Source: Hydrogenothermaceae bacterium
Lineage (GTDB): Bacteria; Aquificota; Aquificia; Aquificales; Hydrogenothermaceae
Length of the DNA stretch: 62,103 bases
Reading direction: 5' to 3'
Assembly: GCA_026418535.1 (NCBI GenBank)
Contig: JAOABC010000007.1
Coordinates: forward strand, 604-62,706
Below are positions 4,604 to 10,201 of this stretch, in pieces. How positions within the stretch are numbered: the stretch's first letter is position 1; each line of letters starts with the position of its first letter. A model generated the notes under the pieces. It was given only the letters and a program-made list of their open reading frames with translations, did not search any database and had not been told where the DNA came from. Position numbers and translations under genes: made by a program.

Positions 4604-5674
4604 ATGATAAGTTTTGGTTTTACAGGGGTAGATGGAAGTAGTACAGTATCCCTTTCAAAGAAAGGGGAAATCTCAAAAAGAGATTTTAAAAATAGGGTGT
4701 TTGTAATTCCTTCTGATAGGTTGTTATATCTGACTGAGAAAGTGGAAATAAAGGACAGAAAAGATGTAGAGAGTTATGTAAAACTTAAGGTAGAAGAGAA
4801 GTTTGGATCCTACCAGTACGACTTCTATTTAGAGGGCAGAAACTTACATATAGCTGTTATAAAAAATTTTGATATACCAGAGAGTTACTATGCTCTTGAT
4901 GGTGAGATGTTTTCTCTCCTCAGATTTTTCAAGTATACTGTAGGTCAAGATGGGTATATATTTGATCTAGACGAAGGAAAGTTTACATTTCTGGAGGTTG
5001 CTTCCGGAAAGATAAGATCCTACAGAGTTATCACAGTGAATTCAGACCAGTTTATCTTAAATTTAGATAACTATATAGATCAGCTTCCTTTAAAAGAGGG
5101 AGGTATACTAGTTTGTGGAAATTCAAAGGAAGTCAATAAACTGTACAACATCTGTAGAGATAGGTTTGGAGTAGATAGGGTGGCTTTACCTAGTGTATGT
5201 AAACCTTCTGAGGTTGCAGCGTTTGGTGCAGCTTTAAAGGGTGTTTTGGGAGAAAACTTCCTTTCTTTTAAGGATGGAACAGTCTCTCCGGAGCTACGGA
5301 GGAGTTTAGTAAACACATTTGCAGTAGTCCTCTTATTGTATTTAGCTATCTATGTAGGAGTAAAGTTCTATACAGATAGCCTTATAAAGGAGATAAAAAG
5401 ATCACAGGTTCAGCTCTTTAAGAAAGTCTTTCCTGATCAACCTGTTGTGTCTGTATACGAACAGACGAAGGCTATGGTGAAGACCTCTCCGGAGTTTAAC
5501 CTATCCAGGAAACTGCTTGATGTAGAACTGCCAAAGGATGTAAAGATATACAAAGTAGAGTATATAGATGGTGTTCTCACAATCAAGGGTGAGTCTAAGG
5601 AACCTCCTTCAGTTGCTAAATCTGTAAAGAAAACGCCCCTAGGGAACTTTGAGTTTGAGGTTAAAGTCCGTTGA
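4604..5674 (+). CDS. gspL: T2SS inner-membrane platform protein GspL-like
   Basis: 356 residues. The first 235 or so resemble the actin-like cytoplasmic fold of GspL/PilM, which binds the GspE ATPase. A single transmembrane helix follows (about residues 237-257, FAVVLLLYLAIYVGV), then a periplasmic ferredoxin-like domain. The stop overlaps the TTG start of gspE by four bases (TTGA), so the pair is translationally coupled, which fits the known GspL-GspE complex. Confidence 0.75.
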   Translation: MISFGFTGVDGSSTVSLSKKGEISKRDFKNRVFVIPSDRLLYLTEKVEIKDRKDVESYVKLKVEEKFGSYQYDFYLEGRNLHIAVIKNFDIPESYYALDGEMFSLLRFFKYTVGQDGYIFDLDEGKFTFLEVASGKIRSYRVITVNSDQFILNLDNYIDQLPLKEGGILVCGNSKEVNKLYNICRDRFGVDRVALPSVCKPSEVAAFGAALKGVLGENFLSFKDGTVSPELRRSLVNTFAVVLLLYLAIYVGVKFYTDSLIKEIKRSQVQLFKKVFPDQPVVSVYEQTKAMVKTSPEFNLSRKLLDVELPKDVKIYKVEYIDGVLTIKGESKEPPSVAKSVKKTPLGNFEFEVKVR

Positions 5675-7083
5675 ATATTCTTAGAGATTACAGGCTTATA
5701 GTGGAGCAAGAAGATGAGACAAAGATAACCCTCATAGTCCCACAGAACTATAACTTTTTGCACGTAGAGGAGATAAGGTTTTTAACTGGAAAAACGGTAC
5801 TTCTTAAGAAAATCCCGGATGAGGAGTTTAGTAGACTCCTCCAGCAAAAACTCTCTGAAGAGGAGATAGTGGTAGAAGCATCCTCGGAGGAAGGAGAGAG
5901 TATATCCTTAGATATACTAGCCTCTGGGGAAGAAAGCCCTATCGTGAACTTGGTGAACTCTATCCTAATAAAGGCAAACACTCTAAACAGTTCGGATATA
6001 CACTTTGAACCTTACGAAGATGGTGCGGTTGTGAGGTTCCGGATGGACGGCATCCTCCATGAATACCTGAAAATACCCACCCAGACTTACCAGTCTGTAG
6101 TGTCCAGGATAAAGGTCATATCTAACCTGAACATTGCTGAGAAGAGAGTCCCTCAGGATGGTAGAATAGGGATAAAGATAGGGTCTAAGGATGTGGATGT
6201 GAGGGTTTCTGTAATCCCAACAGTCTTTGGTGAGAGAGTAGTCTTAAGGTTGTTGGACAAATCTGGATTTAATCTTACCCTTGAAGACCTTGGATTTTCA
6301 GACTCAGCCCTCACAGTTTTCCAGAGAGTGTTAAAGAAACCCTACGGGATAGTACTGGTTACGGGTCCAACAGGAGCGGGAAAGAGCACTACCCTCTATG
6401 CCTCTCTCCACTACATTAAAGACCCAAGAAAGAACATCATAACTATAGAGGAACCTGTTGAGTATCAGATAAGAGGTATAAGTCAGATACAAGTAAACCC
6501 TAAAGTAGGGCTTACGTTTGCTACAGGTTTAAGGTCTATCCTCCGGCAAGACCCGGATATAATAATGGTCGGAGAGATAAGGGACAGCGAGACAGCGGAT
6601 ATAGCAATCCACGCAGCACTAACGGGACACTTAGTCCTGTCCACCCTTCACACCAACGATTCAGTCTCCTCAATACCAAGACTTATAGATATGGGGATGG
6701 AGCCTTTCTTAGTTGCAAACTCTCTTGAGGGTGTGTTAGCTCAGAGGCTTGTCCGGAAAATATGCCCAAACTGTAAAGTTCCCTACAAACCCTCAGAGTT
6801 TGAGCTTGTAGAACTGAAGTTGGACCCGTCTAAAGATTACACATTCTACAGAGGAGAGGGATGTAGTCACTGTCTTGGAAGTGGATACAAGGGAAGAATC
6901 GGCATCTTCGAAGTGTTTGAAGCTGACCAGACGGTTAAGAGTATGATAGGGAAAAATACAGAGAGTACAGATATACTAAACTACCTTAAGTTTAATGGGT
7001 TTAAAACTATGTTCGAGGATGGAGTAGATAAAGTCCTAAAAGGTATAACTACACCATCAGAAGTCTTAGCGGTGATAAAATGA
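5671..7083 (+). CDS. gspE: T2SS assembly ATPase GspE
   Basis: Hexameric cytoplasmic ATPase that drives pseudopilus assembly. Walker A GPTGAGKST is at residues 232-240, the Asp box is around IEEPVEYQI, Walker B is DPDIIMVGEIRD, the His box is LTGHLVLSTLHTND, and a zinc-binding tetracysteine is present (CPNC...CSHC). At 470 residues it is normal for GspE with a short N1 domain. I call it GspE rather than PilB because it lies with gspL, gspD and gspG. The start is TTG at 5671 with GAGG upstream. The stop overlaps the next gene by four bases. Confidence 0.95.
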   Translation: MNILRDYRLIVEQEDETKITLIVPQNYNFLHVEEIRFLTGKTVLLKKIPDEEFSRLLQQKLSEEEIVVEASSEEGESISLDILASGEESPIVNLVNSILIKANTLNSSDIHFEPYEDGAVVRFRMDGILHEYLKIPTQTYQSVVSRIKVISNLNIAEKRVPQDGRIGIKIGSKDVDVRVSVIPTVFGERVVLRLLDKSGFNLTLEDLGFSDSALTVFQRVLKKPYGIVLVTGPTGAGKSTTLYASLHYIKDPRKNIITIEEPVEYQIRGISQIQVNPKVGLTFATGLRSILRQDPDIIMVGEIRDSETADIAIHAALTGHLVLSTLHTNDSVSSIPRLIDMGMEPFLVANSLEGVLAQRLVRKICPNCKVPYKPSEFELVELKLDPSKDYTFYRGEGCSHCLGSGYKGRIGIFEVFEADQTVKSMIGKNTESTDILNYLKFNGFKTMFEDGVDKVLKGITTPSEVLAVIK

Positions 7084-8150
7084 TGAATATAGAAAAACTA
7101 CTCCAAGACAGAGACACCATCCACAACATCCACGATAACTACTTTAAGTTCATCTTTCAGAAAGTAGAGAACGTCAGAGACTTCTTGGAAGAGTTCTTTC
7201 CAGAACTATCCAAACATGTCCAGATAGAGTCTATAGAACCACAGCCAACGGAAAAGTATTCTGTCCAGTTAAAAGAAAAACAGTACCTCGACTTTGCCAT
7301 AAACTGCCAGATTCAAAACAAACCATCCCAGATATACATTCTCTTTGAACACAAATCAAATCTAGACAAAAAAGTGATACTCCAGATAGCAAAGTACATC
7401 GTGGCAGTGTGGGAAGAGGATATAATCAACGACAGAGAGCTAAGGGCTGTGATACCCATAGTCTTCTACCACGGAAGCAAAGAGTGGAACATTCCAAGGA
7501 GTACTACAGAAGGGTTTAAGGATTTTCCGGAGGAGATAAAGAGATACCTTCTATCTCTTGAGTATCTGATATTTGACACAAGCCAGGTAAAGGATGAGAG
7601 GATAAATACTCTCTCTAGTAAGAACCATATACTGATGATGTCTATATATATATTGAAGAAGATGAGTAGGTATACCAAGAGAGGGGAGGCGAAGAGACTC
7701 TTTTTAGAGCTGGCGGAGATGATGTAGGAGCACAGGAGGAGGTACAACGAGTATATTGAGCTGTTTGTAACAATGAGTATAATCTATATACAACAGGTAG
7801 GGAGGATATCTCCGGAGGATGTGGAAGGACTTTTTGACAACCAAGAGGAGAAGAAGATGAAGACAGTAGTGGAGTTTTGGATAGAGAAAGGTCTGAAGAA
7901 AGGTATAGAGCAAAGATTGCAGCAAGGACTACAACAAAGACTAAAAGAAGGACTGTTGAAGGAAGAAAGGGATGTGATAAAGCTCTACATCCAAGCTAAG
8001 CTCAGACATCTTCCAGAATGGGTGGAAAGTGAGGTAAACAAGATAGATGATGTGGATGAGTTAAACAGTCTTTTCAGAGAGCTTATCATGGTAGATGATG
8101 TTGAAGGATTCCTAAGAGTCTACTTTCTAAAGGAAGGAGCTAAAGAATGA
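7080..8150 (+). pseudogene. Rpn-family (PD-(D/E)XK, Transposase_31-like) nuclease gene with one in-frame stop
   Basis: Codons 1-215 and the stretch 7728-8150 are in the same frame, separated only by TAG at 7725-7727. Read through, the product is about 356 residues, the usual size for Rpn proteins (recombination-promoting nucleases, formerly putative transposases). The N-terminal part carries the nuclease core with Asp71 (YLDF) and Glu90-x-Lys92 (LFEHKS). The part after the stop has the charged Gln/Lys-rich coiled tail typical of the family (KKGIEQRLQQGLQQRLKEGL). A shorter protein could restart at ATG 7773. It sits between gspE and gspD with 4-base ATGA overlaps at both ends. It may be inactivated, or the truncated 215-residue form may still fold. 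A deleted relic of the same gene lies at 21058-21127. Confidence 0.85.
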
Positions 8151-10201
8151 ATATATCCTTTGTATGGAGTCTACTACTCTCTTTTCTGCTTTTCTACAGT
8201 GGGAGTTTTGCAAATCCTGAAAATCAGAAAAAGGAAGAAGTTCAACAAACAAAGAAAACAAAGAAAGTTCTCCTCAACTTCAAAGATGCAGAGATATCAG
8301 ACATAGTGGATTTTATGTCTGAGATTACTGGAAGGAACATTATTCTGTCTCAGGATGTAAAGGGAAAGATATCTCTCACATCTTCCAAGCCTGTATCTAT
8401 AGAAGAGGCTTATAATCTATTCACTTTGATCCTTGCCATGAACGGGTACTCTGTTATAGAAGACAGAAACTTTGTCCGGGTGGAGCTATCTTCAAACCTA
8501 AATGTCCTACCTGCTGAAGCAAAAGTGTACTCTGGAGAGATGGAGTTTTTTATCTACACGGCTGAAAACACAAACGCCAATGAGCTGTTGAACACCATAA
8601 GACCATTCCTGAGTAAAGCTTCAAAGGTGTCAGTTAGCATCCAGTCAAATGCACTGGTTGTATACGAGATAAAGGCTAACCTTTCAAAGATAAAGGATAT
8701 GTTAAAGCTTTTAGACAGTAAAGAGAAGGTAGGAGCTCTGTATATATACTATTTAAAGTATGCGAATTCGGAGGAGATAAACAAAACTATAACTCCGATC
8801 ATCCAAGTGATGCAAAGGAATAAACAGAGCTTGATAGTCTCCCCTAACAAAGACAGCAACAGTATAGTGATATTTGCTGATGAGCCTACTTACAAGGAGA
8901 TAATAGAGATCATATCCCAGCTGGATACAGAGAGGGTCATAACAGAAGGTAGGAACTACTTTATAATACCTCTGAAGTTTACTACTGTAAACGAGATCAG
9001 TAGGTCTCTCCAATCTCTCTTTACCGGAGCCTCTCCTGTGCTACCTCAAACCCAGGCAAGTCTACTATCTCAACAGCCGTCTCAACCTCCTCTACCCCAG
9101 CAGACCACTCAGCCAACAGACAGGTTTACCGCTACTCAACCTCTTCCATCTTCAACCTCTCAGACCACTTCCTCCCTTGCCCAACAGACTCAGCAGATAC
9201 CAGCTATAACAACCAAGGAAGGGGTGAGGATAGGTTTCGATGTTGGTACGAACTCAGTGATAGTCTACGCAACAAAGTCTGAGTACGAAGGGCTTAAGAG
9301 ATTTATAGAGAACTTGGATGTAAGAAGAAAACAGGTTCTGATAACCGCCACTGTAGTGGAAGCATCCACGAAGAACTTGCTGCAGATAGGAGTCAGATGG
9401 CAGGCTGTAGGAGAGAAGGGAGGAGTTAGTTTTAGAGGGGGTACCCTGGAGAGTCTCTACCAGTCCTTTCTATCTGGTAGCTTTCTTCTTGGCTTTGTAA
9501 ACACCTATGGAAAGACAGTTTCAGTTGGTGGGAGTTCCATCTTCTTTCCAGACCTTGCTTTACTTTTCTCTTTACTTGAGAGTGGAACGGGTTTTAATAT
9601 CGTCTCAAACCCAAAAGTGTTAACCTTAGACAACCAAGATGCTGAGATAAAAGTAGGAAACGTTATACCTTTTGCCAGTGGTGTGAAGTTTGATATAAAC
9701 GGCCAGCCTATCGTAACTTACGATTACAAAGAGGTAGGTCTCACACTAAAGACAGTCCCAAGAGTCTCCTCAGCTGAGACTCTCCGGCTTAGCTTGAAAC
9801 TGATACTACAGGAAGTGACAGACTACATCAGACCTACTGTTGGGAACATATCTTATGCAGTTCCTGTAACCTCAAACAGGTCTCTGGACTCTGATGTAGT
9901 GGTTGAGAATGGACAGACGATAGTGATAGGAGGGCTTGTAAGTGATAAGAACATAAAAACCCAAGACCAAGTCCCAGGTTTGGGAAGTATACCTATACTA
10001 GGAAACCTGTTTAAATACAGAACAGACTCTAAAGAGAAGACTACTCTCTTTGTATTTTTAACCCCTTACATCATTTCCTCTCCGGAAGAGCTTTCCAAGA
10101 TAACCCAAGAGCATCAGAGAATCTCAGAAGAGATAAACAGAAGGATAATGGAAAAAGAGAGAAAAAAGACTACTCCGGATACGGAAGAGATAAAATGGTG
10201 A
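8147..10201 (+). CDS. gspD: T2SS outer-membrane secretin GspD
   Basis: 684 residues with a signal peptide. N0 (VLLNFKDAEISDIVDFMSEI) and the N1-N3 repeats follow, then a Gln/Pro/Thr/Ser-rich linker at about residues 300-345, and the secretin core. The core ends with the conserved VPGLGSIPILGNLF and LFVFLTPYII. It forms the outer-membrane gate of the T2SS. The low-complexity linker inside the N-domain region is longer than usual. The start overlaps the stop of the Rpn gene (ATGA), so translation of gspD may depend partly on ribosomes finishing that broken gene. No clear pilotin-binding S-domain is visible at the C-terminus. Confidence 0.95.
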   Translation: MNISFVWSLLLSFLLFYSGSFANPENQKKEEVQQTKKTKKVLLNFKDAEISDIVDFMSEITGRNIILSQDVKGKISLTSSKPVSIEEAYNLFTLILAMNGYSVIEDRNFVRVELSSNLNVLPAEAKVYSGEMEFFIYTAENTNANELLNTIRPFLSKASKVSVSIQSNALVVYEIKANLSKIKDMLKLLDSKEKVGALYIYYLKYANSEEINKTITPIIQVMQRNKQSLIVSPNKDSNSIVIFADEPTYKEIIEIISQLDTERVITEGRNYFIIPLKFTTVNEISRSLQSLFTGASPVLPQTQASLLSQQPSQPPLPQQTTQPTDRFTATQPLPSSTSQTTSSLAQQTQQIPAITTKEGVRIGFDVGTNSVIVYATKSEYEGLKRFIENLDVRRKQVLITATVVEASTKNLLQIGVRWQAVGEKGGVSFRGGTLESLYQSFLSGSFLLGFVNTYGKTVSVGGSSIFFPDLALLFSLLESGTGFNIVSNPKVLTLDNQDAEIKVGNVIPFASGVKFDINGQPIVTYDYKEVGLTLKTVPRVSSAETLRLSLKLILQEVTDYIRPTVGNISYAVPVTSNRSLDSDVVVENGQTIVIGGLVSDKNIKTQDQVPGLGSIPILGNLFKYRTDSKEKTTLFVFLTPYIISSPEELSKITQEHQRISEEINRRIMEKERKKTTPDTEEIKW

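Follow-up and report, generated by a model that had tools for sequence, protein, structure and literature searches.

Our analysis of a 62,103-nucleotide stretch of DNA from a Hydrogenothermaceae bacterium (hereafter the window) uncovered, at the junction between the type II secretion system (T2SS) genes gspE and gspD, what is probably a decayed Rpn toxin-antitoxin gene whose antitoxin has been retained in the host operon, an example of an already known type. The insertion, an in-frame TAG codon, the homology on either side of it and the position of an internal start can be read from the DNA itself. In the model that we favor, an Rpn toxin-antitoxin (phage-defence) gene inserted itself between gspE and gspD in this lineage, and a nonsense codon then severed the C-terminal part from the full-length toxin, RpnL. 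The antitoxin RpnS (7857-8150) is still encoded and now amounts to a small gene of its own just ahead of gspD. Full-length RpnL would no longer be made, RpnS would be made from 7857, and its translation would pass ribosomes to gspD. Since the cost lies in the toxin, its loss with the antitoxin kept may have been tolerated.

Rpn (YhgA-like, PF04754 / COG5464) has been described by Kingston et al. 2017 (PMC5350276) and Zhong et al. 2023 (PMC10327210). It is a mobile phage-defence gene that encodes both the full-length nuclease toxin RpnL and the antitoxin RpnS, which is started inside the same frame (PMC10327210). RpnS also occurs as a separate gene, and Rpn insertions were reported to lack target-site duplications and to have variable ends (PMC10327210).

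The interrupted rpn gene and its host operon

The window carries, on the + strand, a T2SS operon in the order gspL-like gene (at 4604), gspE, rpn, gspD, one unassigned gene and gspK, followed by a gspG-type pseudopilin gene, more minor pseudopilin genes and a gspF-type gene; names beyond gspE, gspD and gspK were read from sequence only. The ATPase gene gspE (5671-7083, + strand) is intact (PF00437, E=2.1e-135; TIGR02533, E=8e-182) and 84% identical to the copy in the same-genus genome G001. The secretin gene gspD (8147-10201, + strand; TIGR02517, 457.6 bits against a cut-off of 351) is also intact, with 70% identity over the compared part in G001.

The first-pass annotation had placed an Rpn gene between these two genes with ATGA overlaps on both sides, and its coordinates are correct. 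At the 5' junction (7080-7083, + strand) the gspE stop TGA (7081-7083) overlaps an rpn ATG at 7080. A second in-frame ATG (7083-7085) is better spaced from the upstream GGTGAT (duplex -8.6 kcal/mol) and overlaps the gspE stop by one base, so the real 5' overlap may be 1 nt instead of 4. At the 3' junction (8147-8150, + strand) the rpn/RpnS stop TGA (8148-8150) overlaps the gspD ATG (8147-8149).

The 5' part of rpn (7083-7727, + strand; 214 aa from ATG 7083) encodes the predicted PD-(D/E)XK nuclease domain of RpnL and ends at a TAG (7725-7727, + strand) located, by alignment with homologues, in a weakly conserved linker past this domain. Its product matched PF04754 (Transposase_31, PD-(D/E)XK) with 113 bits (E=1.8e-32; Pfam cut-off 21). 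Beyond the TAG, the same frame continues for 140 codons plus a TGA (7728-8150, + strand) and no other lesion was found. Pfam gave no match for this part, but it was recognized with 66.4 bits (E=2.6e-20) by a profile made from intact homologues with the window left out. Among 200 shuffled sequences the top score was 8.0 bits, and the other five frames either had no match or stayed at or below -1.3 bits. Because PF04754 is matched before the TAG and the homologue profile after it, we read the locus as a single gene of about 355 codons interrupted once, in agreement with the earlier description of two halves in one frame broken at 7725. Full-length RpnL in one unbroken frame is absent here. Such loci are prone to be annotated as two items, a truncated transposase and a hypothetical protein.

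H17 D18, D70, E89 and K91 were invariant or nearly invariant across 12 homologues, and by our own correspondence D18, D70, E89 and K91 align with RpnA D11, D63, E82 and Q84, the residues mutated by Kingston et al. (PMC5350276). AlphaFold2 models of the 214-aa nuclease part (mean pLDDT 84) and of RpnS (pLDDT 77; a long helix at residues 4-49 followed by three short ones) are consistent with a nuclease core and a long-helix bundle. Fold and sequence searches of the PDB for a solved Rpn or RpnS structure gave no significant match.

An assembly or sequencing error at the TAG, or a polymorphism in a population carrying an intact Rpn in its T2SS operon, would fit what is seen here, one lesion in about 355 codons with both halves otherwise well conserved and the catalytic residues present. 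The 29-contig assembly, however, has a reported completeness of 99.94%, and the phylum commonly shows broken Rpn genes, so that a true stop would not be unusual; we consider such an error or polymorphism fairly unlikely.

The predicted internal start and possible consequences for gspD

Since the TAG falls after the entire nuclease domain and before RpnS, the expected products are a 214-aa nuclease domain devoid of the C-terminal domain and a 97-aa RpnS, the stop of which overlaps the gspD start. The predicted RpnS (7857-8150, + strand) begins at an ATG that follows AGAGGAG and aligns with the internal start of homologues. It contains a long helix with GLxxG-type repeats, and this domain, repeat helix included, is homologous to the C-terminal domain of intact Rpn proteins. 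Copies of RpnS differ strongly in how many GLQQ-type four-residue repeats their helix holds (L037, L041, L042, L057 and others), with a very long run in L057. Four of 13 RpnS sequences weakly matched DUF4351 (best E 0.0022), and no match to DUF4351 was obtained with the window RpnS.

The ribosome-binding duplex at ATG 7857 (-9.2 kcal/mol) is near those of the rpn and gspD starts (both -8.6 kcal/mol), but compared with a synonymous-codon null it is no stronger than the encoded residues would give by chance (p=0.49). In most intact homologues of the phylum the best internal site is AGGAGGUGA or similar before the aligned Met, at -11 to -18 kcal/mol, and several of these exceed the codon-null expectation, with p values that are not independent; the strong GGAGGTGA of the homologues is missing at 7857. 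The first ATG after the TAG opens a frame at 7773-8150 (+ strand), and its weak ribosome-binding site (-2.8 kcal/mol) led us to reject it as the restart point. A promoter-like TTGAGC-16-TATAAT lies at 7756-7783, about 75 nt 5' of the RpnS start; as a single 10/12 match of a kind whose count was not above chance, it was not retained as an internal promoter.

It had been proposed that a restart at 7773 keeps ribosomes in place and that gspD translation is coupled to the broken gene. A downstream restart could indeed have this effect, but it likely occurs at 7857, and coupling is possible through RpnS. Synthesis of GspD need not depend on it, since gspD is preceded by its own AAGGAGC ribosome-binding site (-8.6 kcal/mol). 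With this site and an intact gspD signal sequence, a large loss of secretin would not be expected, and if coupling matters, translation of RpnS could supply it.

The stop could instead have created a working two-gene operon with a free 214-aa nuclease domain and a separate RpnS. The nuclease domain is complete with D18, D70, E89 and K91, RpnS is intact, and RpnD shortened by 45 residues at its C-terminus retained weak activity (PMC5350276). Yet RpnS forms complexes with RpnL, and the repeats of the shared C-terminal helix set specificity (PMC10327210), so a nuclease devoid of its C-terminal domain would probably escape the antitoxin or be inactive. Such a split was not seen in any homologue, and a functional pair of this kind appears distinctly improbable.

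The locus keeps much of the RpnL-RpnS organization: a nuclease domain with catalytic residues, a helical C-terminal domain that is variable and carries GLxxG-type four-residue repeats, a predicted internal RpnS start, a patchy distribution and gain as a single gene. It differs in that RpnL is stopped after the nuclease domain, in its fit with overlaps into a T2SS operon and in an internal ribosome-binding site weaker than that of homologues. As in separate RpnS genes (ypaA/rpnES and similar, DUF4351, PF14261), an RpnS-like domain stands apart from a full-length toxin; the published separate copies, however, arose by duplication beside an intact rpn, unlike the window RpnS and those at exbB-exbD described below, which remain after the toxin part was lost.

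An inactivated toxin with a retained antitoxin is also the general pattern of orphan antitoxins and of toxin-antitoxin loci in decay, and the rpn of the window fits it. It differs from them in that one frame gave rise to both products, and in its place within a conserved host operon.

Gain of Rpn at the gspE-gspD junction

Comparison of the junction supported an insertion, as had been suggested. The site is empty in the same-genus G001 and in the sister-genus genomes G021, G015 and G028, where the gspE stop is followed by 8-13 nt with a ribosome-binding site and then the gspD ATG. In these relatives gspE ends at the same VIK-stop as in the window, with one added residue in G028. The nuclease query found no match in the G001 genome, PF04754 is represented by a single gene in the window's genome, and its distribution is patchy (13 of the 136 genomes of the phylum). 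The empty sites of these four relatives therefore indicate that Rpn was gained here and is not ancestral.

The tight fit at both junctions might suggest an old operon member, present between gspE and gspD from the start and lost in relatives. This is extremely unlikely, as the four nearest relatives, from two genera, are empty with ordinary spacing, and the more distant relatives examined show different gene orders with no Rpn beside gspE.

Regarding the source, a recent foreign import was not supported, because the GC content of rpn (0.395-0.40) is close to that of the window (0.385) and its codon use is not atypical. A phage or plasmid origin was likewise set aside, the best matches (Acetoanaerobium, Leptospira and others) being only about 31-34% identical, and a search of viral contigs found no relative. 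A PDDEXK_2 query gave no match in the window's own genome, nor did its control. Two sister genomes were examined in pieces, the second covering up to 760 kb. RpnS-like C-terminal domains were also observed in open frames of ~290-320 aa (L289, G039 and G037), although the genomes concerned gave no match to the Rpn nuclease query; these domains are perhaps joined to another nuclease family.

The ends of the insertions

The first-pass annotation had regarded Rpn genes as usually standalone and had invoked a precise mechanism targeting ATGA junctions, neither of which survived comparison. Of 27 Rpn loci in the phylum, a co-directional gene lies within 20 nt on the upstream side at 12 and on the downstream side at 8. 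At five sites we set the insertion against its empty alleles, which led us to reject ATGA targeting as a rule. Although the proposed search for an unoccupied junction did yield four empty gspE-gspD sites, none has a direct ATGA overlap (0/4). In this genome and its sisters, 11.6-16.7% of closely spaced co-directional gene pairs have an ATGA-compatible junction; two in succession would be expected as a coincidence in about 2% of cases, before any selection for compactness. The 3' ATGA needs only a reading frame that runs into an ATGA start.

Across the phylum the ends of Rpn insertions vary, judging from these alignments. At L042 of G031, for which G025 and G008 gave clean empty alleles, Rpn (L042 1483-2526) begins where those alleles have the ribosome-binding site and TTG start of the next gene, and its end forms a TTGA overlap. 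The insertions at L033-L035 carried in non-coding flanks of about 190 bp on the upstream and 60 bp on the downstream side. The L050 insertion also carries non-coding flank; its empty allele has an ATGA overlap, and the filled allele is not seamless.

A possible transposon-type feature at the window Rpn is an exact 9-bp direct repeat, ATGAATATA, at the two start codons (7083-7091 at the rpn start and 8147-8155 at the gspD start, both + strand). Such identity of the first 9 nt is found in 0.41% of ATG-start gene pairs. This repeat, together with the start of the L042 Rpn at the ribosome-binding site and TTG start of its empty allele, could suggest that Rpn enters precisely at start codons or ATGA junctions and duplicates a 9-bp target as it does so. 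The left copy, however, may be native, as homologues likewise begin M-x-I-E-K, and L032, L042, L055 and L057 share no repeat beyond ATG(A) or TTG. A 9-bp duplication was thus rejected as a general signature, the non-coding flanks at L033-L035 and L050 do not fit precise entry, and the published account gives variable ends and no target-site duplications (PMC10327210). We find such a mechanism very improbable. ATGAATATA could be microhomology used at entry, and is kept only as a lead given the M-x-I-E-K start of homologues and the lack of such a repeat at any other site. Ordinary illegitimate recombination, together with selection for translation in a compact operon, best accounts for the tight fit of the junctions, without a dedicated ATGA-targeting machinery.

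Other loci with a lost toxin and a retained antitoxin

A comparable situation was found at the exbB-exbD junction. G015 (L266) has an intact Rpn there with an ATGA overlap with exbB, and G025 (L267) and G031 (L269) keep only an open RpnS. The junction is empty in six genomes (G021, G008, G028, G033, G001 and G000), with an ATGA in G021 but not in the other five. A broken RpnL with an open RpnS was also observed at L058 in G031 and at two places in G025 (617-618 kb and 4-5 kb). In the sister genus, short frames that hold RpnS alone are common.

RpnS is open in 9 of the 10 readable broken loci, which is suggestive of retention in a small sample drawn by a search that favors RpnS, itself about a quarter of the gene. 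The nine are the window, five loci in G025 (at 78, 618, 5, 1067 and 1225 kb), L269 and L058 in G031, and L285 in G015; the exception, with RpnS also broken, is L144 in G085. The usual rule is that the toxin must go first, and this proportion fits it.

The loci form a series of empty, full, toxin-broken and antitoxin-only states at host operon junctions for a gene-within-gene toxin-antitoxin system. With such a series one can ask which part selection keeps and whether leftover antitoxins guard against new Rpn. A broader model, in which Hydrogenothermaceae have repeatedly left Rpn antitoxins in envelope operons (gspE-gspD, exbB-exbD) after loss of the toxin, where they would now serve as translational relays for the downstream gene or as a standing shield against incoming Rpn toxins (anti-addiction), is at present quite unlikely in our estimation. 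Finally, near 1430-1752 in L285 and near 1066850-1067050 in G025:C1, the first 15-19 residues of Rpn are fused almost directly to RpnS, giving small genes from which the nuclease domain is gone.
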